From positions 128,882-169,940 of the forward strand of contig JACZTG010000001.1 in the NCBI GenBank assembly GCA_022573815.1: a stretch of DNA of 41,059 nucleotides, in the 5' to 3' direction. Each line of letters starts with the position of its first letter. Positions within the stretch are counted from its first letter, which is position 1. Below, one piece after another: positions 23,739 through 40,588 of the stretch. Under the pieces are notes generated by a model. That model did not search any database. It was given only the letters and a program-made list of their open reading frames with translations, and had not been told where the DNA came from. This DNA is from Candidatus Neomarinimicrobiota bacterium (GTDB taxonomy: Bacteria > Fidelibacterota > SORT01). The position numbers were made by a program, and so were the translations under genes.

Positions 23739-26051
23739 ATGGAAAAGATAAATCCGCAAAAGTTTCGTCTTAAAATTCGCTATATTATTGCTCTGAGTAC
23801 AATAGCAATTTTGATGACATCAGGCCAGATTCTTATCCATAATTCTCTTGTTAAATTATCCAGTGATTCCCGCATAGTTAATATTGCTGGGCGCCAGCGG
23901 ATGTTAAGCCAAAAATTGAGTAAAATTGCTTTGGGAATCGAATCAGCAATTCCCGGCTCTGAACGGGAAGAATTGTTAGGGGATTTGGAGCAATCGTTAT
24001 CTCTCTGGCAGGAATCACATTTCGGGTTGCAATACCAAGGTGGCAAATTAAAAATTCCGAGTGATAACAGTGAGAAAGTTAGGGTATTATTTTCTATAAT
24101 AGAGCCGAATTTCTTGGCTATTCAAGACGCTTCTAACAGTATATTGGAGTTGGGAAAGAGCCGGATTAAAAAACATACTTCTCCGGATTTTTCAGATTTT
24201 GTTGAGACAATAATGAGCAACGAAAAGCAATTTCTCACAGGAATGAACGACATAGTTATGCAGTATGACCTTGAAGCCAAGGCAAAAGTAAACAGATTAA
24301 TGTTGACCGAACATATATTGATGGCGCTAATCCTGAGTTTATTAATCTTTCAGGGATTGTTTGTTTTCAGACCTGCGCAAACAAGAATTAAAAAAACTTT
24401 TGATAAGTTATTCGAGGCTAAAACACTTCTCAAAAGGCACACAGAAGACTTAGAAAGGATAGTCGAGGAACGTACAAAAGAGATTCAGATGTCGGAAGAG
24501 AAATACCGGAATCTCGTAGAGAATTCGATAGACTCTATTTATATACTGCAGAAAGACAAGTACGTATTTGTGAACTCTGTTTGGGAGAAACTTTTCGGCT
24601 ATTCGAATGAGGAAGCTCTTTCTGACAAAATTAATTATATGGATATTGTGGCGCCGGAAAGTAAGGAATATGTTATTGAGCGTTGTAAAGTAAGAGAAGA
24701 AAATGAAATATTCGTAAGTAATTATGAATTCAAAGCGATAACGAAGTCAGGCGAATTATTGGATATCGAAATAAATACGACGCCTATCAAATATAACGGA
24801 AGACCGGCGATACATGGGATAATTAGAGATATAACAGCTGAAAAACGAGAGAAAGCTGAGAGATTGGAACTTCAAATTAAACTCCATCAAGCGCAAAAAA
24901 TGGAGTCGCTTGGAATGTTAGCAGGAGGGGTAGCCCATGACTTGAATAATATCATCGGTCCTATTATGGCATATCCCGACCTGATAAAGATGAATTTGTC
25001 TGACGGTAAACCTGTAGGCAAAGAATTGGACACCATAGCTTCTTCAGCCCAAAGAGCAGCTCACGTCATATCAGACCTGTTGGCTTTGACACGTCGCGGC
25101 AAGTATAAGATGGAACCGATAGACTTGAATGATCTTATCACCGAATATCAAGTATCAGCTGAATATAGTTCAATCGGCACACTATATGCCAAAGTAAAAC
25201 CTAACTTTCAACTTTCAGGAGACAGACTGCTCTTTAAGGGCTCCGAAGCCCATATTCCCAAAGTAATAATGAATCTTGTTAATAATGCTTTTGAGTCTAT
25301 GCCGGAAGGAGGGGTGCTCAGTGTCAAAACCTATCCAATCATTGTAGAAGATGGAGAATTAAGCGATAAGAATATTCCTCAAGGAAGATATAATCTGCTG
25401 ACAATAGAAGATCAAGGTGAGGGTATAGCTAAACAGAATTTATCTAAGATTTTCGATCCCTTTTTTACCACAAAGATGAAATCAGGAAATAACGGTACAG
25501 GATTGGGACTGTCGGTAGTTTACAATGTACTTAAAGATCATGGGGCACATATAGATGTGGAGAGTGAGGTTGGAATCGGAACAAAGTTCTCTATCTATTT
25601 TCCTCGAATCAATGAGACGAAACAAACTACATCAGAGCTAAGCTTAGACAGCAAAAGTAGCGGAAATATATTTGTAGTTGATGACAGGAAAGAACAAAGA
25701 GAGATAGCCTCATTACTGTTATCAAATTTGGGATATAAAGTAGAGAGCGCGGGAAGTGGCCAAGAGGCGATTAAATATCTTAACAATAATGATACAGATT
25801 TAGTGTGGCTTGATATGATACTTGAAGATGATATGGATGGACTTGATACATACAAAGAGATAATTAAAATAAAACCCGGGCAGAAAACCATTATAGTTAG
25901 CGGCTATAGTGAAACCGATAGGGTTAAAGAAGCAGAAAAGCTCGGCGTAAATGGATTTATGCAGAAACCGTATAAATTGGATGATATTAAAAAAATAATA
26001 CAAACGGTATTAAACGGTGATAAACTTGGTTCGGTAAAAAGCTTAGCTTAA
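23739..26051 (+). CDS. Hybrid sensor histidine kinase (PilJ-type sensor, PAS, HisKA, ATPase, receiver)
   Basis: This 770-residue membrane kinase has TM1 at about residues 13-32 and an extracytoplasmic PilJ/NarX-type four-helix sensor starting IVNIAGRQRMLSQKLSK. TM2 is at about 186-206, followed by a coiled coil (to 250), a PAS domain (about 253-370), a DHp H-box GGVAHDLNN with His400, HATPase_c (N box NLVNNAFE, G boxes GEGIAKQN and GTGLGLS), and a receiver (about 640-760) with acceptor Asp692 in WLDMILEDD and Lys in QKPY. The H-box type is that of GHKL kinases with a DLNN motif. The transmitter and receiver are nearly duplicated in the kinase at 33191. No dedicated output regulator is adjacent. 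Confidence 0.93.
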   Translation: MEKINPQKFRLKIRYIIALSTIAILMTSGQILIHNSLVKLSSDSRIVNIAGRQRMLSQKLSKIALGIESAIPGSEREELLGDLEQSLSLWQESHFGLQYQGGKLKIPSDNSEKVRVLFSIIEPNFLAIQDASNSILELGKSRIKKHTSPDFSDFVETIMSNEKQFLTGMNDIVMQYDLEAKAKVNRLMLTEHILMALILSLLIFQGLFVFRPAQTRIKKTFDKLFEAKTLLKRHTEDLERIVEERTKEIQMSEEKYRNLVENSIDSIYILQKDKYVFVNSVWEKLFGYSNEEALSDKINYMDIVAPESKEYVIERCKVREENEIFVSNYEFKAITKSGELLDIEINTTPIKYNGRPAIHGIIRDITAEKREKAERLELQIKLHQAQKMESLGMLAGGVAHDLNNIIGPIMAYPDLIKMNLSDGKPVGKELDTIASSAQRAAHVISDLLALTRRGKYKMEPIDLNDLITEYQVSAEYSSIGTLYAKVKPNFQLSGDRLLFKGSEAHIPKVIMNLVNNAFESMPEGGVLSVKTYPIIVEDGELSDKNIPQGRYNLLTIEDQGEGIAKQNLSKIFDPFFTTKMKSGNNGTGLGLSVVYNVLKDHGAHIDVESEVGIGTKFSIYFPRINETKQTTSELSLDSKSSGNIFVVDDRKEQREIASLLLSNLGYKVESAGSGQEAIKYLNNNDTDLVWLDMILEDDMDGLDTYKEIIKIKPGQKTIIVSGYSETDRVKEAEKLGVNGFMQKPYKLDDIKKIIQTVLNGDKLGSVKSLA

Positions 26052-27156: not shown

Positions 27157-29712
27157 ATAAATCTATCTATACAAAAACAGGGAATCATTTATATATCCAT
27201 AGTCTTGTCAGCGGGAATTTTTCTTGTGGATTTAATTATTCCCTTAGGGGTAGCTGCAGGAGTACCCTATATGGCAGTAGTACTTCTTTCACTGTGGCAT
27301 CCGAGTAATAAATATACAATTGGTGTTGCAGTAATCTCCTCGTTATTAACAGTGTTAGGATATTTACTATCGCCTGAAGGTGGTTTATTTTGGATGATTT
27401 TATATAATAGAATTTTGGCACTTTCCGCCATATGGGTAACGGCGATTTTAACAATTAAACGTAAAAAAGTCGAGTTTGAGTTACAAAAGAGCGAGCGAGG
27501 CCTCAAAAGAGTATTGCAGATTGCAAAGTTAGGACACTGGGAGTGGAATATTCTGACAGAGGAAACCGTTTTTAGCGACGAATATCATAAAATATTTAAT
27601 TTAGAGAAGGATAAATCGTACAGCACTGATGAAATTCTAGAATTAATCCATCCTGATGATAAGGCAAGATATTTGGAAATACTGGAAAATTCAATAAAAG
27701 AGAAGAAAGGTCTGACCGCCGACTACCGGATTGTATTAGATAGTAATGAAATAAAACATATCCATTCTGAATGGAAGGTTTACGCAGACTCTGAGAATAA
27801 TCCAATCAAGATGGCGGGGACCGTACAGGATATAACCGAACAAAAAAAAGTGCTTGATGACCTGACTGTCAGTGAATTGAACCTTAATAAAGCGCAGGAA
27901 ATGGCTCATGTGGGTAGTTGGGATTTAGACCTCCGCACAAACAGACTTAATTGGTCAGATGAAGTTTACAGGATATTCGGATTAACACCGCAAGAGTTCG
28001 GCGCTACCTACGAAGCATTTGTAGAAGCAATACATCCCGATGACAGAGAAATGGTGAACGAGGCATATCAGGAAGCAGTAAAAAACAATTCTCCATATGA
28101 AGTTGTTCACCGGGTTTTAAGACCTGATGGAGAAATTCGAATCGTTCGTGAGAGATCAGAGGAAATTTTAGATTCGACCGGGCATGCAATTCGCTCTGTG
28201 GGCACTGTTCATGACATAACCGAAATGGAAGAATCGATCCGGAGAGCAAAAAAAGAAAGAAACCATTTTGATAAACTGCTTGAATCGTTAGGAGAAGTGG
28301 TTTTCATAATGAATTTTGGTAATAGGGTGATAGAAAGGGTCAATTCCGAAATAAAATCTGTTTTCGGCTATGAGAGCTACGAATGTGTTGGACAATCAAC
28401 AAGGATGCTCTGTCAAAATGAAGAAGATTTCATTGAGTTTGGAAATAAGTTACAAGAAGCAATTAAACGGGGTGATGAAGTTGTTCACATAAAGCAAACA
28501 TTTGTGAAGAAAAATGGAGAAACGTTTCCTTCGGAAATTACACTTTCCTTTTTAAAGGAGGCAGGTAAAATAACGCACGTCATTTCTGTTGTTCGAGATG
28601 TTTCCGAGAGTGAACGAGCCGAACGCGCCTTGCGAGAAAGCGAAAAAAGGAATCTCAGGGCTCAGGAAAAAGCTCATTTGGGTCATTGGGATTGGAATGT
28701 TGTTACAAATGAAGCAATAGTGTCAGACGAATTTATAAGGATATGGAATCAAAACAGAGAGGAAAATGATAAACCTTCCTCTCTTGAAGATTTTATGGAA
28801 TCGGTCCACCCTGAGGACAAAGAAACTGTCTTGAATGCGGTAGATATGGCATTAAAAAATATTGAAGAATATGATATTGATTTTCGTGTGGTAATGCCGG
28901 ATAATACAATTAAATGGGTGAACAGCGCGGGGGATGTGACCTTTGATTCCGAAGGCAAACCCGTGCGAATGGTTGGAACCCTTCAGGATATTACCGAGCG
29001 CGTCAAATCTGAATTAGCGTTGAGAGAAGCAAAGGATAAATTGGAGGAAAAAGTAAGAGAAAGAACCTTGGAGCTTGAGAAATCCCATGGGAATTTGAAA
29101 AAATCATTAGAAGAAAAAGAATTGTTACTTAAAGAGATTCATCATCGGGTGAAAAACAATCTTCAGATTATATCAAGTCTTCTGAACCTGCAGGCAAACG
29201 CGATTAAAGATAAAAATATTGTAAAAAATCTTATGGATATGAGAAGCAGGGTTCAGTCTATGTCACTGATTCATGAGAATATATATAGATCAGATGATCT
29301 TTCTAAAGTCGATGTTAATAATTACGTTGCGATGTTAACAGAAAATCTGATACAAACTTATTCGGAAGAAGGGAAATCTATAAAGATACGGAGTAAAGTC
29401 GGGGACATCACATTGGATATTGATAAGGCTATCCCACTCGGGTTGATAATTACAGAGTTAGTCACGAATGCCATGCAGCATGCGTTTATAGAGAAAAAAA
29501 GCGGTATTATCGATATTAACTTGAGCGAATTTAATAATACTCTTGAAATGATAATCAGCGATAACGGCGATGGATTAACCGAAGGCACAGGTATTAATGA
29601 GAAAGGGAATCTCGGTTTTATGTTAGTAAAAACTCTTTCCGATCAACTTGATGCCGACCTTGATGTGAAAGTTAGTAACGGAACCAAGTATACAATGAGT
29701 TTTGCTAAATAA
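27157..29712 (+). CDS. Multi-PAS HisKA_2-type sensor histidine kinase
   Basis: The N-terminal membrane region has about three helices in the first 85 residues, including [17 protein letters not shown] and [17 protein letters not shown]. Four PAS domains follow, at about 115-230, 240-355, 370-480 and 495-625, three of them with PAC-like endings DITE. The HisKA_2 DHp has [17 protein letters not shown], and the ATPase domain has [12 protein letters not shown] and DNGDGL. This kinase class usually feeds response regulators in general-stress or light pathways. Start: the first standard codon is TTG 27205, inside the first membrane helix and without a ribosome site. AAGGAG (27145-27150) stands exactly 6 nt before ATA 27157, giving [11 protein letters not shown] prefer it. 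A DHp/receiver protein follows after 13 nt. Confidence 0.9.
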
Positions 29713-29725
29713 ATACAGAATATAA

Positions 29726-30769
29726 TTGGATAAAAAGTCAAAAATACTAATAATTGAAGATGAAAGAATAATCGCTGAAGATATTAGCTTAACTCTCCAG
29801 ACCCTTGGCTATAATGTTTGCGCAATTGGCTCTACAGGCGAAGAAGCGGTTTCGCTGGCAAAAAATTTAAAGCCTGATTTGATTCTTATGGATATTAGGC
29901 TAAAAGGGAAAATGGACGGTATTCAGGCAGCGGAAAAGATTTTGAGCAGTTCGAGGATACCAATTATCTACGTAACCGCATATGCCGATGAAAAAACTCT
30001 TCAAAGAGCGAAAATTACCGAGCCTTACGGTTATGTTCTGAAACCTATACGGCAAATTGAGCTGCATTCAGCAATCGAAATTGGAATATACAAGCATGAG
30101 ATGGAGGAAAAACTTAAAGAGAGCGAATTGAAAATTGAAAGAGAAAAACTAAATACAATTAAGGAGTTGGGAGGAGCAGTAGCACACGAATTTAATCAAC
30201 CCTTACAATCTCTTATGATATTATCAAAACTCATGTTGACTGAATCAAAAGCAAAGAGAGAGGAAATATCAGTACAACTTTTTAAGGATGTTGAAAGAAT
30301 GTCAGTACTGGTTCAAAGGCTGCTGAACTTACACACAGTAAAGACTAAATCCTACGCCGGAAAAAGTAAAATAATAGATCTCCTTGGCAGCAGTAAATTT
30401 CACATATCCACAAAAAAAAGCGTGCTACTTATAGACGATGAAGAGTCTATTCTCAATTTGCTCTCCAGGATTATAGAAAAAGAGGGTTATGATATTGATA
30501 GAGCCAATAGCGGCAAAAAAGCAATATCATTGTTAAATAAGAATGATTACGGGTTAGTAATTTGTGATATTCAGCTACCCGATTTGTCGGGCGTGGACTT
30601 ATATCAACAATCCCGCAAAATGAACAAAAAAACTCCATTTGTATTCATTTCCGGATATACTGTAGATGAGATAGGAAAATCAGTAATAGATAGTTCTGCA
30701 GGATTTCTTGCTAAGCCATTTAAGGTTAGTGATATTTTGGAAATTCTGAATTCTGTATTCAAAGCGTGA
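29726..30769 (+). CDS. Receiver-DHp-receiver protein lacking an ATPase domain
   Basis: This 347-residue soluble protein has a first receiver (about 5-120) with Asp56 in LILMDIRLKG and Lys in VLKPI, a short coiled coil (122-148), and a DHp-like helical hairpin (149-205) with an H-box AVAHEFNQPLQ, His154. The tail reads TKSYAGKSKIIDL, and a second receiver (about 229-345) has Asp281 in VICDIQLPD and Lys in AKPF. No N, G1, F or G2 boxes are present; only about 20 residues separate the hairpin from the second receiver. It should accept and pass phosphoryl groups without making them, like a phosphotransfer hub. It starts at TTG 13 nt after the HisKA_2 kinase, its probable partner. Confidence 0.85.
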   Translation: MDKKSKILIIEDERIIAEDISLTLQTLGYNVCAIGSTGEEAVSLAKNLKPDLILMDIRLKGKMDGIQAAEKILSSSRIPIIYVTAYADEKTLQRAKITEPYGYVLKPIRQIELHSAIEIGIYKHEMEEKLKESELKIEREKLNTIKELGGAVAHEFNQPLQSLMILSKLMLTESKAKREEISVQLFKDVERMSVLVQRLLNLHTVKTKSYAGKSKIIDLLGSSKFHISTKKSVLLIDDEESILNLLSRIIEKEGYDIDRANSGKKAISLLNKNDYGLVICDIQLPDLSGVDLYQQSRKMNKKTPFVFISGYTVDEIGKSVIDSSAGFLAKPFKVSDILEILNSVFKA

Positions 30770-32401: not shown

Positions 32402-32483
32402 ATATATAATTTCTCGTTTTGGAAAGAAAGATTACTTAAAAAATATCAATATGATTGATTTATTTTTATAGAGAGTGGGAGAA

Positions 32484-33194
32484 TTGAAAATTCTAATTTA
32501 TAGTTGCTTGTATCTCGGATTAAGTGGGCAAGCATTAGGACAAGAAACACTTGTACTGTCATCAGTCAAAGGTTCGATTGATGCCGAAGTATCTATAGCT
32601 GTCATGAAGGAAGCTTATGATATGATAGGAATTAATATCGAGATACGTGAATTTGGTGGCAAGGAGGCTTTACACGCATCAAATTCAGGTATGGTAGATG
32701 GAGAAATTGAGCGAATTGACGGGATTAGCAAGATCTGCCCGAACTTAAGGCAAGTTCAAATACCGATAAATTATTTTAATCTACACGCATTTTCAAAGAT
32801 GAATAATATTGTAATTAACGGGTGGTACGATTTAAAACCATATAAGTTAGGGATTACTGAGGGTATGATAATCACCGGGCAAAACACAATTGGTATGGAT
32901 GTTAAACTGTATAAGAATAATCAAGAATTGTTTGAAATGATATTGGCAGACAGTATTGAGATAGCTGTTATGCCGTTAATGAACGGCAAAATTATACTTA
33001 ATAGGATGGGCATATCTAATATACACGCATTGAACAAAGTAATTGAATCATTATTCCTTTATCATTATTTACATAAAAAACATGAAAATCTTATCCCAAA
33101 ATTGGAAAAAGCGTTAAAAATGATGTTATTTAAAGGAAGAATGCTTCAAATCCGAAAGGAAACGTTTGATAATATTATAAAAAATCAGGACTGA
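32484..33194 (+). CDS. Periplasmic solute-binding-like protein paired with a hybrid kinase
   Basis: A signal peptide (KILIYSCLYLGLSGQALGQ) precedes a family-3-type binding-protein fold of about 215 residues: TLVLSSVKGSIDAEVSIAVM, YDMIGINIEIREFGG, DGEIERIDG, and KPYKLGITEGMIITG. The pattern is that of SBP_bac_3-like proteins often encoded beside sensor kinases rather than ABC permeases, and no permease is present here. I prefer TTG 32484, which puts the signal peptide at the very N terminus; GTG 32475 would add three residues. The stop TGA overlaps the proposed CTG start of the downstream kinase, so the two are probably translationally coupled. The ligand is unknown. Confidence 0.75.
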   Translation: MKILIYSCLYLGLSGQALGQETLVLSSVKGSIDAEVSIAVMKEAYDMIGINIEIREFGGKEALHASNSGMVDGEIERIDGISKICPNLRQVQIPINYFNLHAFSKMNNIVINGWYDLKPYKLGITEGMIITGQNTIGMDVKLYKNNQELFEMILADSIEIAVMPLMNGKIILNRMGISNIHALNKVIESLFLYHYLHKKHENLIPKLEKALKMMLFKGRMLQIRKETFDNIIKNQD

Positions 33195-35488
33195 TCATAG
33201 AAGAAATCACCAGCAGGCGCAGAATTGAAATCAGGTTTATACTAATCCTTTCCGGGGTAACCTTATCGATAATAATTTTTAGCTTTTTACTGACCTACGT
33301 TTTGACTGTTGAAGGTAAGAAAACACAACTGCGGGAGTTAGCTCGTTCTCAGGCGAGACTTATGGAATCCATAGCAAAATACAACGCCTTCTTTTCCGGG
33401 GATACTACAGAGGGATACGGTAGAGCTGCTACTTTAAGCCAGATTAGAGAAAGTCATCGTAAATACACAGGCTTTGGTGAGACCGGCGAATTGGTGTTGG
33501 CAGAGAAAAAAAATAACTTAATCATATTTTTATTATTTGCCAGAAAGGATGCGGCATACAGGATTCCCGATCCTGTGGAATTGAATTCGGGAATAGCTGT
33601 TCCAATGTCCTTGGCGCTTCATGGGAAGTCCGGAATAATTGAGGCATTGGATTATTTGGGTGTGGAAGTATTAGCAGCTTACGAACATCTAAATTTTTTA
33701 GACATGGGATTAGTCGCTAAAATGGATATGTCTGAAATTCAGGCACCTTTTATAACTGCGATTTTATATACTATTCTTGCTTCATTCGGGTTAATTCTCA
33801 TAGGTACTTTTTTAAGTCGGAAGATTGTAAGTCCGCTTATAAAACAAGTTTATAATTTTACATCTGAATTGCAATCACGAGAAGAAGAGCTTATTCGCGC
33901 AAATTTTCTTGCCGAATCTGCTCTTGATATTACTAAGTCAGGTTATTGGCACGTTTCATTTGAGGATTCGGGTTGGTATACATCATCTGATAGGACTATT
34001 GCGATATTTGGCGATTTCCCACGTCCTGATTATCGCTATCATACCAAAGATGATTGGTATGCAAATATGAAGCTCGCCGATGTGAAAGCAGCCGAAATTG
34101 CATGGAATAAGTTTGTTGCTATAAGAGAAGGAGAAAGATCTGAATTTGATGTTACCTTTGCAACTAAACGCCCGGTTGATGGCGAGATAGTCTGGATTCA
34201 TGCTTTGGGGCATGTAATCAAAGATGACAGGGATGAAACGATTGCATTGTTTGGCGTAGTTCAGGATATTACGGAAAAAAGGAAGATTAAAGCAGAGCAG
34301 TATGAACTAAGGGAAAAGCTGGAACGCGCGAAACGAATGGAATCATTGGGATTATTAGCAGGGGGAGTAGCCCACGACCTGAATAATATTATAGGTCCAA
34401 TTATGGCCTATCCGGAACTGATAAAGATGAATTTATCCGAAGGCAAGCCGGTGGATGAAGATCTTGATGCCATAAGTTCCTCAGCACATAGAGCAGCTGA
34501 TGTGGTCTCAGATCTCTTGGCTTTAACCCGTCGCGGTAAGTATAAGATGGAATCGATAGTTTTGAATGATTTTATTAACGATTATCTGAACTCAGCTGAA
34601 TCAAAAACAGCAGAAAAATTATTTCCTCAAGTAAAACTTAATATTCAACTTTCAAAAGACCGATTATTAATTAAAGCTTCGAAAGCCCACATTCCAAAAG
34701 TGATAATGAATCTTGTTAATAATGCATATGAGTCTATGCCTTTGGGAGGAGTCTTAAGTATTACCAGCTCTTCTGTTGACATAAAAAGTGAAAAATTAAG
34801 TGATAAGAGTATTGCGCCAGGAATGTATAATCTGCTCACAATCGAAGATCAGGGGGAGGGAATTGAAGAAGAGAACGTCTCAAAGATATTCGATCCATTT
34901 TTTACCACAAAAATGAGATCAGAAAAAAGCGGCACAGGATTGGGATTGTCTGTAGTATATAATGTACTTAAAGATCATGGCGCGCATATTCACGTGGAGA
35001 GTAAGCTGGGTTTTGGAACAAAATTTTCTATTTATTTTCCAGCGACAAGCGAAGAAATAGAAACATCATCTGAACTTAAGCAAAAGAAACGGAATAGCGG
35101 AAGCATTCTTGTGGTCGATGATAGAAAAGAACAAAGAAATATTGCGGAAAGACTATTAACAACTTTAGGATATGATGTCGTGACTGTAGAGAAAGGTCAG
35201 GATGCGATTGAATATATTAAGAAAAAAGACGTGGATTTAGCTTTACTTGATATGATACTCGAAGATGATATGGATGGACTTGATACATATAAAGAGATTA
35301 TAAAAATAAAACCAGGGCAGAAAACCATAATTGTTAGCGGTTATAGTGAATCCGATAGGGTTAAAGAAGCTGAAGAGCTCGGTGTAAATGGATTTATAAA
35401 AAAGCCGTATACTATGGATGATATAAAAAAAATATTACTAAAAGTGTTAGTTGACGGAGAAATTGATTCGAGTAAAAATCCTGATTAA
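33191..35488 (+). CDS. Hybrid sensor histidine kinase (periplasmic sensor, PAS, HisKA, ATPase, receiver), probable CTG start
   Basis: The frame has no ATG, GTG or TTG between the stop at 33170 and TTG 33302, yet the upstream codons encode a charged tail and a clear membrane helix (IRFILILSGVTLSIIIFSF). CTG 33191 overlaps the preceding TGA as CTGA and gives 765 residues. Architecture: TM1 (about 15-40), periplasmic sensor (about 45-185), TM2 (about 190-212), PAS (about 240-365), DHp GGVAHDLNN with His395, HATPase_c (NLVNNAYE, GTGLGLS), and a receiver with LDMILEDDMDG and KKPY. The C-terminal half is nearly identical to that of the kinase at 23739, while the sensor differs. It is likely the receptor for the binding protein upstream. 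Confidence 0.9.
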   Translation: MIIEEITSRRRIEIRFILILSGVTLSIIIFSFLLTYVLTVEGKKTQLRELARSQARLMESIAKYNAFFSGDTTEGYGRAATLSQIRESHRKYTGFGETGELVLAEKKNNLIIFLLFARKDAAYRIPDPVELNSGIAVPMSLALHGKSGIIEALDYLGVEVLAAYEHLNFLDMGLVAKMDMSEIQAPFITAILYTILASFGLILIGTFLSRKIVSPLIKQVYNFTSELQSREEELIRANFLAESALDITKSGYWHVSFEDSGWYTSSDRTIAIFGDFPRPDYRYHTKDDWYANMKLADVKAAEIAWNKFVAIREGERSEFDVTFATKRPVDGEIVWIHALGHVIKDDRDETIALFGVVQDITEKRKIKAEQYELREKLERAKRMESLGLLAGGVAHDLNNIIGPIMAYPELIKMNLSEGKPVDEDLDAISSSAHRAADVVSDLLALTRRGKYKMESIVLNDFINDYLNSAESKTAEKLFPQVKLNIQLSKDRLLIKASKAHIPKVIMNLVNNAYESMPLGGVLSITSSSVDIKSEKLSDKSIAPGMYNLLTIEDQGEGIEEENVSKIFDPFFTTKMRSEKSGTGLGLSVVYNVLKDHGAHIHVESKLGFGTKFSIYFPATSEEIETSSELKQKKRNSGSILVVDDRKEQRNIAERLLTTLGYDVVTVEKGQDAIEYIKKKDVDLALLDMILEDDMDGLDTYKEIIKIKPGQKTIIVSGYSESDRVKEAEELGVNGFIKKPYTMDDIKKILLKVLVDGEIDSSKNPD

Positions 35489-36636: not shown

Positions 36637-38553
36637 TTGAATATCACTTTTAAACTCAAATTAAGATTTATCGCATTATCAATATTTATTTCGATACTAA
36701 CACTGAGCTGTTTCTCAGGTTCTGCTACCAAGACGGTCACACATTCCGATACACCGCATAAAACAAATGAAAAAATATTTGTAAAAGACGCCCATTCATT
36801 TTCAAAGCCGTGGGAGGCAAATATAGAGCATATTTCACTTGATCTGAATATCGATTTTGAAGAGAAGATCATATCAGGAAAAGCAATTTTATCTATCAAT
36901 AACAAAAAAGCCGTAAACACGCTCCACCTTGATTCCTGGGATTTGAAGATCGAAAAAATCACCCTTGGAAAAGAAGAAAGTCCAACAACTTTTGAAATAG
37001 GTGAATTTGTTAAACTTCACGGATCGCCACTCATAGTTAATATTATGCCGGAAACGAAAACAGTGAATATCTATTACGCTACAAGCCCGAGCGCCGGGGG
37101 ATTAGATTGGGTTGCTCCTATTCAAACCGCAGGCGGAGTTGAACCGTTCATGTATACTGTAGCAGAGCCAATACTTGCACGGAGCTGGATTCCGCTTCAG
37201 GATACGCCCGGAGTTCGATTCAGTTATGACGCTACTATCACTGTACCTCCAAAATTTCTGGCTATAATGAGCGCCACTAATCCGACAGAAAAGAATGCAG
37301 AAGGAGTTTATCATTTCGAAATGCCTCAGAAAATTCCATCCTATCTTGTTGCACTTGGGGTTGGTGATTTGGAATTTCGTTCACTCGGGCCTCGTACAGG
37401 CATTTATGCAGAACCATCGCTCATAGCTAAAGCAGAATATGAGTTTGCCGATACTGAAGCAATGATGACTTCGGCTGAAGAACTGTACGGCCCATATCGT
37501 TGGGGAAGATATGATCTTCTGATTCTTCCTCCGAGCTTTCCATTCGGAGGAATGGAAAACCCTCGACTCACATTTTTAAGTCCATTTTATCTCGTAGGTG
37601 ACAGGTCACTAGTATCGGTCATTGCGCATGAACTGGCTCATTCATGGTCGGGAAACCTTGTGACAAATTCTGATTGGAATGATATATGGCTGAATGAAGG
37701 CTTTACCACCTACTTCGGTGGCAGGATAATGGAAGTAGTATACGGAAAAAGTTACCAGGATATGTTAGATGTGGTAAAAGAAATAGATTTGAGTGCAACG
37801 GTTGATCGAATAGGTCCCGATAACGCTGATACCCGGCTAAAAGTGAATTTTGACGGAAGAGATCCTTCAGGTGTTTTTACGAATATTCCATATTATAAAG
37901 GACATTTCTTTTTAATGGCTATTGAGAATGCTGTTGGCAGAGAGCGTTGGGATGCATTTTTGAAAGATTATTTTACCGTGCATGCCTTTGGCAATATGAC
38001 GACCGAACGATTCCTTAAATATATGGACGAAAATCTGATAATGGGAAATGAGGAGCTTGCGGATATAATCCAGATCGATGATTGGGTTTACGGCGAAGGA
38101 ATACCTACAAATTTTCCTGAATTGCATTCTTCGGAATTCGATATTGTTGACGAAGCAGTCAACAATTGGAAAACCGGTTCTTCAGCATCCGAAATAAGCA
38201 CTGAAGGTTGGACAACCCATCACTGGATATATTTCATTAAACAGCTTCCGAAGAAAATATCAACAGCTCGATTAGACGATCTAAATAAAAATCTAAATTT
38301 AAACAATAATAAGAATCATAGGATATTAAGAATTTGGCTTGCGCTTGCGATGGAAAATCATTATGAACCTTCTTTTGACATGACCGAGAGATTTCTCATG
38401 GAGAAATACGGTTCTACAGGGTTATATCGAGCTTTGGCTAAGACTCCTGAAGGTTTGGAGATGGGAAGAAAAATCTATGAGAAGGCAAAACCGATGTACC
38501 ATCATCTATCTAGAACTAGAGTTGAAGTTATTCTCGGATTGGATGAGAACTAA
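36637..38553 (+). CDS. M1-family metallo-aminopeptidase lipoprotein (copy 1)
   Basis: This 638-residue secreted lipoprotein has a signal peptide ending in lipobox LTLSC (Cys about 26). An N-terminal beta domain leads to the catalytic domain with the exopeptidase motif GGMENP and zinc site HELAH at 331-335 plus Glu354 in WLNEGFTTYF. A C-terminal helical domain resembles that of leukotriene-A4-hydrolase-like M1 enzymes. It removes N-terminal residues from peptides and is presumably membrane-attached in the periplasm or at the surface. It starts at TTG with GGAGG. It is followed 112 nt later by a close paralogue. Confidence 0.92.
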   Translation: MNITFKLKLRFIALSIFISILTLSCFSGSATKTVTHSDTPHKTNEKIFVKDAHSFSKPWEANIEHISLDLNIDFEEKIISGKAILSINNKKAVNTLHLDSWDLKIEKITLGKEESPTTFEIGEFVKLHGSPLIVNIMPETKTVNIYYATSPSAGGLDWVAPIQTAGGVEPFMYTVAEPILARSWIPLQDTPGVRFSYDATITVPPKFLAIMSATNPTEKNAEGVYHFEMPQKIPSYLVALGVGDLEFRSLGPRTGIYAEPSLIAKAEYEFADTEAMMTSAEELYGPYRWGRYDLLILPPSFPFGGMENPRLTFLSPFYLVGDRSLVSVIAHELAHSWSGNLVTNSDWNDIWLNEGFTTYFGGRIMEVVYGKSYQDMLDVVKEIDLSATVDRIGPDNADTRLKVNFDGRDPSGVFTNIPYYKGHFFLMAIENAVGRERWDAFLKDYFTVHAFGNMTTERFLKYMDENLIMGNEELADIIQIDDWVYGEGIPTNFPELHSSEFDIVDEAVNNWKTGSSASEISTEGWTTHHWIYFIKQLPKKISTARLDDLNKNLNLNNNKNHRILRIWLALAMENHYEPSFDMTERFLMEKYGSTGLYRALAKTPEGLEMGRKIYEKAKPMYHHLSRTRVEVILGLDEN

Positions 38554-38665: not shown

Positions 38666-40588
38666 TTGGGCATCAAAATTAACTTCAATTTGAAATTTAT
38701 TTTATTATCGTTATTTATTTCATTATTAACGATGAGCTGTTTTTCAGGTACTGCTACTAAAACGGATAAACATACAGATATGGCGAGGACAATGAATGAA
38801 AAAATATACGTAAAAGACTCCCACTCAAATTCAAGGCCGTGGGAAGCGAATATAGAGCATATATCCCTTGATTTATCTGTCGATTTTGAGGAAAAGGTCA
38901 TATCAGGGAAAGCGACCCTATCTATCAATAATAAAGAAGCTGTAAATAAACTATATCTTGACGCATGGGGTTTAACGATAGATAGAATCACTCTCGGGGA
39001 AGACGAAAGTCCTGCAACTTATGAATTAGGCGATTTTGTCGAGCTTCACGGTTCAGCGCTGGTAGTTGATATTACGGCAGAAACAAAAACAGTTAATATA
39101 TACTATGCTACAAGCCCGGACGCTCAGGGTTTAGATTGGGTTCCACCCATACAAACAGCAGGCGGTATCGAGCCATTTATGTATACTCAATCACAGGCAA
39201 TTCTTGCGCGAACGTGGATACCTTTACAGGACACTCCCGGCGTTCGATTCAGCTATGATGCTACAATCAAAGTGCCATCAAAGTTTCTGGCAATAATGAG
39301 CGCGGGAAATCCAACCGAAAAAAATGCAGAAGGTGTTTATCATTTTGAGATGCCTCAGAAAATTCCATCCTATCTTATGGCTTTAGGGGTTGGTGATTTG
39401 GAATTTCGTTCGCTCGGACCGCGCACGGGCGTTTACGCCGAACCATCGCTCATAGATAGAGCAGAATATGAATTTGGCGATACTGAGGCTATGATGACAT
39501 CGGCTGAAGAGCTGTACGGGCCGTATCTTTGGGGAAGATATGACCTTTTAGTTCTTCCCCCGAGCTTTCCTTGGGGAGGGATGGAGAATCCACGGCTCAC
39601 GTTTGTATATCCGCTCGTTCTCGTGGGCGACAGATCCTTAGTCTCGCTTATAGCGCATGAACTGGCTCATTCATGGTCGGGAAATCTTGTGACCAACGCA
39701 GATTGGAACGATATCTGGCTGAACGAAGGATTTACCACTTACTTCACCGGCAGGATAATGGAAGTGGTATATGGGAAAAATTACCAGGATATGTTAGACG
39801 TAACATCAGAAATTAGTTTGCGAGAAGAGGTCGAAAGAATGGGTCCTGACAGCGCTGATACGCGGCTAAAGCTGAATATGGATGGAAGAAACCCTGATGA
39901 CGCATTTACGAATATTCCATATTCTAAAGGAAAGTTCTTTCTAAAGACTATTGAGAATGCTGTCGGTAGAGAGCAATGGGATGCGTTTCTGAAAGAATAT
40001 TTTGCGAAGCACGCTTTCGGAAATATGACGACAGAACGATTTCTGAAATATATGGACGAAAATCTGATAATGGGAGATAAAGAGCTGGCGGAAAAAATCC
40101 AGATTGATAATTGGGTTTACGGCAAAGGGATACCGTCAAATTTCCCTGAATTGCATTCAACAGAATTTGATATAGTTGACGATATGGTCAATAATTGGGA
40201 AAACGGTTCTTCAGCATCCGAAATCAGCACTGAAGGATGGACAACCCATCACTGGATATATTTCTTTAAACAGTTGCCGAAGAAAATTTCAACAGAACGG
40301 TTAGATGATCTAAACAATAATCTTAATTTAAACGATATTCAGAATCCTATCGTATTGAGATATTGGCTCGCGCTTGCGGTTGAAAATCTCTATGAACCTT
40401 CTTTTGAAACGACCGAAAAATTTCTCACGGAGATTGGGCATAGAGGCTCTGTTCGGGAAATATTCCGGGCATTGGCTAAGACTCCCGAAGGTTTGGAGAT
40501 GGGAAGAAGAATCTATAAGAATACCAGAGAGAAGTACCATTATATGACTTTCACTGCCATAGATGCTATTCTCGGCTGGGAGGAATAG
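38666..40588 (+). CDS. M1-family metallo-aminopeptidase lipoprotein (copy 2)
   Basis: The tandem paralogue of the preceding gene has 640 residues with the same lipobox (LTMSC), GGMENP, HELAH at 331-335 and WLNEGFTTYF. Most of the catalytic core is identical. Differences concentrate in the N-terminal beta domain, around residues 375-400 (SEISLREEVERMG instead of KEIDLSATVDRIG) and in the last 40 residues. All catalytic residues are intact, so both copies should be active. It starts at TTG with GGAAGGAG. tRNA-Ser follows 47 nt later. Confidence 0.92.
   Translation: MGIKINFNLKFILLSLFISLLTMSCFSGTATKTDKHTDMARTMNEKIYVKDSHSNSRPWEANIEHISLDLSVDFEEKVISGKATLSINNKEAVNKLYLDAWGLTIDRITLGEDESPATYELGDFVELHGSALVVDITAETKTVNIYYATSPDAQGLDWVPPIQTAGGIEPFMYTQSQAILARTWIPLQDTPGVRFSYDATIKVPSKFLAIMSAGNPTEKNAEGVYHFEMPQKIPSYLMALGVGDLEFRSLGPRTGVYAEPSLIDRAEYEFGDTEAMMTSAEELYGPYLWGRYDLLVLPPSFPWGGMENPRLTFVYPLVLVGDRSLVSLIAHELAHSWSGNLVTNADWNDIWLNEGFTTYFTGRIMEVVYGKNYQDMLDVTSEISLREEVERMGPDSADTRLKLNMDGRNPDDAFTNIPYSKGKFFLKTIENAVGREQWDAFLKEYFAKHAFGNMTTERFLKYMDENLIMGDKELAEKIQIDNWVYGKGIPSNFPELHSTEFDIVDDMVNNWENGSSASEISTEGWTTHHWIYFFKQLPKKISTERLDDLNNNLNLNDIQNPIVLRYWLALAVENLYEPSFETTEKFLTEIGHRGSVREIFRALAKTPEGLEMGRRIYKNTREKYHYMTFTAIDAILGWEE

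Follow-up and report, generated by a model that had tools for sequence, protein, structure and literature searches.

The window, a 41,059-nucleotide stretch of DNA analysed as a whole, encodes a protein in which a DHp hairpin bearing a phosphoacceptor histidine lies between two receiver domains, REC1 and REC2, and in which no ATP-binding domain is present (Table 1). On sequence grounds, this hairpin is part of a coherent lineage without ATPase domains that is found in at least two phyla. The domains, the intact residues, the missing ATPase, the conserved neighbour, the conserved tail behind the hairpin and membership of the lineage were computed directly. On balance, we favour the view that the protein is a phosphotransfer hub, that is, a single-chain relay in which phosphate would pass from the histidine of a kinase to Asp56, from there to His154 and then to Asp281.

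Table 1. Coordinates, in the window, of the REC-DHp-REC gene, its parts and the kinase gene upstream
Feature	Position	Strand	Remarks
HisKA_2 histidine kinase, four PAS_3 stretches	27205..29712	+	HisKA_2 29134-29361, HATPase_c 29410-29703
REC-DHp-REC protein without ATPase domain	29726..30769	+	347 aa, TTG start
REC1, residues 5-117	29738..30076	+	acceptor Asp56 at 29891-29893; nearest NCBIfam model, PhyR receiver
Signalling helix and DHp hairpin, residues 110-200	30053..30325	+	His154 at 30185-30187; H-box HEFNQPLQ
Conserved tail after hairpin, residues 207-222	30344..30391	+	predicted beta-hairpin; Tyr210 at 30353-30355; motif KIIDL
REC2, residues 233-341	30422..30748	+	acceptor Asp281 at 30566-30568

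Pfam matches Response_reg twice in the protein (8.9e-48 for the protein, best stretch 233-341). The middle part gives a HisKA match at residues 151-202 (PF00512; 7.6e-6) with 26.3 bits, slightly below the cut-off of 26.9. The assignment is therefore marginal from this protein alone; among 40 ATPase-less relatives, however, 39 have a HisKA match (E<=0.01; best 2e-12). In addition, the H-E-x-x-[NQT]-P pattern of HisKA hairpins is found as HEFNQP at 154-159, within a predicted hairpin (110-170/175-200). The first-pass annotation had read an H-box, AVAHEFNQPLQ, with His154, and the receiver acceptors Asp56 and Asp281; all are indeed intact where it placed them. An AlphaFold model of the full protein, built from a 22-row alignment (mean pLDDT 86.9), gives the order REC, helical hairpin, beta-hairpin (207-210, 214-217), REC, with about 30 residues between the helical hairpin and REC2. 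Foldseek searches with the full model match mostly receivers (PleD, EutV) and give little information on the middle part, while the hairpin module alone matches DHp domains weakly (best E 0.16, prob 0.97). In an NCBIfam scan, REC1 resembles the PhyR receiver and the best stretches of REC2 include the C-terminal receiver of CckA, both below the whole-protein cut-offs of these models. REC1 is linked to the hairpin through a helix, as in the Rec-controlled kinases of the LvrB type. PADLOC matches to SduA and PDC-M60B are confined to the receiver stretches and were given no weight; scans for promoters and terminators rose at most modestly over shuffled background.

With Pfam, the protein matches no HATPase family at E values up to 1. 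When the entire genome is searched for HATPase_c, 20 places are returned. None is within the gene, the closest being in the upstream HisKA_2 kinase, and no stand-alone HATPase gene adjoins. In the confident AlphaFold model, a 16-residue tail is all that follows the hairpin, and the degenerate ATPase-like domain of the Spo0B/ChpT/PhyT type is absent. Together, these results reveal no hidden or split ATPase domain in the gene and uphold the earlier claim that the protein has no kinase domain. The stretch singled out for this check, residues 150-235, takes in the hairpin itself as well as the conserved tail. The protein has neither the HATPase_c of a histidine kinase or hybrid histidine kinase nor the autophosphorylating CA domain of LvrB-type kinases. 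With its conserved histidine and no recognisable HATPase, it is a 'HisKA, no HATPase' protein.

Proteins of this class, which is widespread and has received little study, were noted in Archaeoglobus in 2005 (PMC1183210) and account for 1,556 of the 42,417 HisKA proteins in SMART, or 3.66% (PMC3591291). Some carry REC, PAS or GAF domains (PMC5847659, PMC1183210, PMC3591291). For the archaeal 'non-enzymatic HK-like proteins', phosphotransfer or phosphatase roles have been suggested, and most archaeal proteins that resemble kinases but have no kinase domain are wrongly annotated as kinases (PMC5847659). The premise of the first-pass annotation that DHp hairpins come with HATPase_c is refuted by the cases documented in these three papers and by the lineage described below. 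Entries such as AF_1472, termed 'possible incomplete histidine kinase' in P2CS, likewise have a HisKA with the conserved histidine and no ATPase domain, but the reports on them cover sensor-HisKA or REC-PAS/GAF-HisKA proteins and describe no tyrosine tail, no REC-DHp-REC hub and no HisKA_2 pairing. In open-licence PMC text, we found no tested member of the class, and no paper on REC-DHp-REC proteins without an ATPase or on the tail signature. Whereas the class is already known, what appears to be new here, within that search, is an ATPase-less lineage with a signature of its own, a predicted beta-hairpin behind the DHp with a near-invariant tyrosine.

The same genome encodes two further ATPase-less DHp-REC proteins, GAF-DHp-REC (L174) and PAS-GAF-DHp-REC (L175). 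Elsewhere in the phylum, GAF-DHp, REC-DHp, PAS-DHp and bare DHp proteins occur, whose chains end just past the hairpin. None of the 40 ATPase-less relatives matches HATPase_c at 0.01. The phylum holding the record titled Pelobacter sp. UBA5610 has 52 full-length matches in 23 of 59 sampled genomes, among the matches listed. The class is much rarer around a Spirochaetes record (2 of 80 genomes) and a Pseudomonadales record (2 of 120), where any match at 1e-14 in the sampled genomes was counted. In the Pelobacter-type phylum, the REC-DHp-REC order has an output, the diguanylate cyclase domain GGDEF (L208:964-2721, L211:598-2514); the REC2 acceptor is Asn in the first of these proteins and Asp in the second. 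Many members of the lineage, such as the GAF-DHp and PAS-DHp proteins, have no REC, and a three-site relay within a single chain can therefore not be what the class as a whole does. A plasmid search with the module returned, for one query, kinases or unannotated stretches without the tail and, for the other, no match.

Several features of the relatives may be recorded here. An ATPase-less GAF-DHp gene adjoins or overlaps the gene of a complete PAS-HisKA-HATPase kinase at L148, L150, L153, L156, L157, L158, L162 and L170, and this is a recurrent two-gene pair in several families of the phylum. One ATPase-less DHp protein (L140:4041-5042) has hydrophobic N-terminal segments and an H-box in which Glu is replaced by His (HHFSQPL). 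In the REC-DHp relatives of the A5 alignment, the distance from the receiver lysine to the phosphoacceptor histidine frequently equals a multiple of seven (42, 63, 77), which agrees with the preference for heptads described for Rec-controlled kinases; it is 48 in the window protein and its orthologues.

Among 69 ATPase-less rows, a set in which some sequences were entered twice, His154 and Pro159 are kept in all 69 and Glu155 in 68, which argues that the acceptor histidine is under selection without a kinase in cis. Tyr210 of the tail is present in 68 of these rows, the other having Phe, and in 61 rows of a 62-row alignment. The tail motif Y-x3-6-[IML]x[DNEKS][ILTM] occurs in 57 of 62 ATPase-less relatives against 1 of 47 ATPase-bearing ones, a separation that is optimistic, the motif having been drawn up on the same data; the one protein that departs from this has a further HisKA stretch and a HATPase behind it. 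A model of hairpin and tail from 62 sequences (mean pLDDT 94.9) shows the tail as an ordered beta-hairpin. A quick tree of 70 hairpin columns, excluding the tail, in which the ATPase-bearing rows were the best matches to the ATPase-less model, has 3 changes of label between ATPase-less and ATPase-bearing compared with 34.6 when shuffled, and a tree with a single ATPase-less clade is not rejected (p-AU 0.83). We tentatively suggest that a DHp with a tyrosine beta-hairpin in place of the ATPase domain may form a distinct family of histidine phosphotransfer domains, unnamed in Pfam and NCBIfam, which is combined with GAF, PAS, REC and GGDEF across phyla and of which REC-DHp-REC would be the single-chain relay form, fed by HisKA_2 kinases. 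A sequence signature that separates ATPase-less proteins from true kinases would allow annotations to be corrected.

The stop codon of the upstream kinase (29712) and the start of the REC-DHp-REC gene (29726) are 13 nt apart, as the first-pass annotation had stated. In its genome, no HisKA_2 match other than this kinase (9e-27 for HisKA_2 in Pfam) exceeds the Pfam cut-off. Of the 244 genomes examined in the phylum, only two others yielded a full-length relative with the REC-DHp-REC order; both are of the same family, and the identity is 57%. Each has a multi-PAS HisKA_2 kinase immediately upstream and on the same strand, at a distance of 17 nt in one and 19 nt in the other. Thus, the kinase adjoins the gene in each of the three genera with the protein, and the proposed pairing, as well as the order that a survey of genomes was to look for, recurs in the family. 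Neither gene was found in the two remaining genomes of the family, which are 66-69% complete. The orthologues have the same length as the window protein, with an ATG start at the place equivalent to its TTG. The fate of His154 and of the two aspartates in close homologues had been named as decisive; all three residues are kept in both full-length orthologues. For receivers like REC1 (45% identity or more), 8 of 12 loci, the two orthologues among them, show a HisKA_2 H-box motif on the same strand no more than 3.5 kb away. For receivers like REC2, orthologues set aside, the figure is 0 of 71; the sample is small and partly related. By this count, REC1 is the kind of receiver encoded beside HisKA_2 kinases. 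The HisKA_2 kinase is probably the phosphate donor for the REC-DHp-REC protein.

In G001, one of the two other genomes with an orthologue, a frameshift splits the HisKA_2 kinase into two frames inside its HisKA_2 domain (L136:3398-3420), be it a real mutation or an assembly error. In family f13 of the phylum, a HisKA_2 kinase is followed by a complete REC-HisKA-HATPase-REC hybrid (L240:1-3018, domains read from the sequence), which indicates that the same slot can hold an ATPase-bearing form.

In the relay that we favour, the upstream kinase would autophosphorylate and hand its phosphate to Asp56 of REC1. The ATPase-less hairpin, dimeric as other DHp domains, would receive it on His154. From there it would go either to Asp281 of REC2, within one chain or between the two chains of the dimer, or to the receiver of another protein. 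The path may also run in reverse, as a drain. Since REC2 has no output domain, it would signal by binding a partner or by passing the phosphate on. We infer these phosphotransfer steps and their direction, as well as the dimerisation and the role of the tail.

Such a relay has a counterpart in Sphingomonas, where Pak kinases phosphorylate SdrG and PhyT, a histidine kinase-derived shuttle between receivers, carries the phosphate to PhyR, as PhyT H341A does not; this Pak > SdrG > PhyT > PhyR relay was demonstrated in vitro and in vivo (PMC5898713). The likeness lies in the kinase-derived shuttle, in the single-domain receiver as first acceptor and in the involvement of a PhyR-type receiver. However, PhyT is a separate, membrane-anchored protein, whereas the window protein has both receivers and the hairpin in one chain. 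When set beside the Spo0B/ChpT/PhyT type, it has the histidine and a predicted DHp and no ATPase domain; ChpT retains an ATPase-like fold, of which the window protein keeps no remnant. In CckA, too, a C-terminal receiver comes after the DHp, and it is similar in sequence to REC2; this CckA receiver swaps phosphate with DHp domains and counts as an intermediary receiver (PMC9981736). The window protein differs from CckA by its lack of an ATPase domain and its extra N-terminal receiver. Rec-controlled kinases (LvrB and the L240 hybrid) share the succession of REC, signalling helix and DHp and likewise stand downstream of another kinase, but they also have a working ATPase domain past the DHp.

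Against the relay stand the Asn at the REC2 acceptor position of the L208 protein, the weak Foldseek matches to DHp domains and the +4 position of the H-box, which is Gln or Asn in 59 of 62 relatives and leaves a phosphatase-type role. The compact phosphorelay put forward by the first-pass annotation is plausible from the domains, the conserved residues and the kinase pairing. Its wording that the protein 'could only relay phosphate' is too strong, because a phosphatase, a sink, a substrate phosphorylated in trans within a split kinase, or an allosteric partner might be built in the same way.

Phosphatase activity depends mainly on acidic and Asn/Thr residues near the acceptor histidine. In the window protein the +4 residue is Gln158, outside the HE/DxxN/T motif, and it is the acceptor histidine itself that is invariant, though this activity mainly needs its neighbours. 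It is rather unlikely, in our opinion, that the DHp is a phosphatase or phosphate sink, in which phosphorylated REC1 would alter the coiled coil so that the hairpin strips REC2 or foreign receivers, even though HisKA hairpins can dephosphorylate receivers and 'HisKA, no HATPase' proteins have been suggested to act in this way (PMC5847659). The HE/DxxN/T motif is present in 711 of the 1,556 ATPase-less HisKA proteins (PMC3591291), Asn occupies +4 in 25 of the 62 relatives, and control of a DHp by a REC through a helix is known for LvrB (PMC13269768).

We regard as unlikely a split kinase in which the ATPase domain of a different histidine kinase would phosphorylate His154 in trans, the protein being a substrate with two receivers. 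The HisKA and HATPase domains of EnvZ do function on separate chains, CheA3/CheA4 is a natural split kinase (PMC3591291), and GAF-DHp relatives adjoin complete kinases in the eight loci listed above. However, the conserved neighbour here is a HisKA_2 kinase with a histidine of its own and a DHp of a different family, and no stand-alone HATPase gene lies beside the REC-DHp-REC gene.

That the hairpin merely dimerises, alone or with a kinase, with REC1 and REC2 as phosphorylation-controlled switches and His154 idle, is quite improbable. REC phosphorylation does reshape the coiled coil in Rec-controlled histidine kinases (PMC13269768), and the spacing from Asp to His, which is 98 in each of the three orthologues, is one heptad shorter than the 105 given by the published D56 and H161 of LvrB; but dimerisation alone does not need an H-box whose His and Glu are invariant or nearly so in 62-69 divergent relatives. 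Finally, a decayed hybrid kinase, a relic of recent ATPase loss or truncation for which the L240 hybrid could be a model, is very improbable in view of the same-length orthologues in three genera, the conserved tail and the grouping of the hairpin with the ATPase-less lineage in the tree. With its fixed kinase neighbour, the REC-DHp-REC protein offers a tractable case for asking if members of the class pass phosphate on, remove it or do neither.

The surroundings of the locus have features of their own. Two similar hybrid kinases (HisKA-HATPase-REC) stand on either side of it, at 23739-26051 and 33302-35488 of the window. Directly upstream of the second, positions 32475-33194 encode a 239-aa protein with no Pfam match, which could be a sensor partner of the periplasmic binding type. 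Farther on, tandem peptidases of the M1 family with leukotriene A4 hydrolase-like C-terminal domains are encoded at 36637-38553 and 38666-40588.
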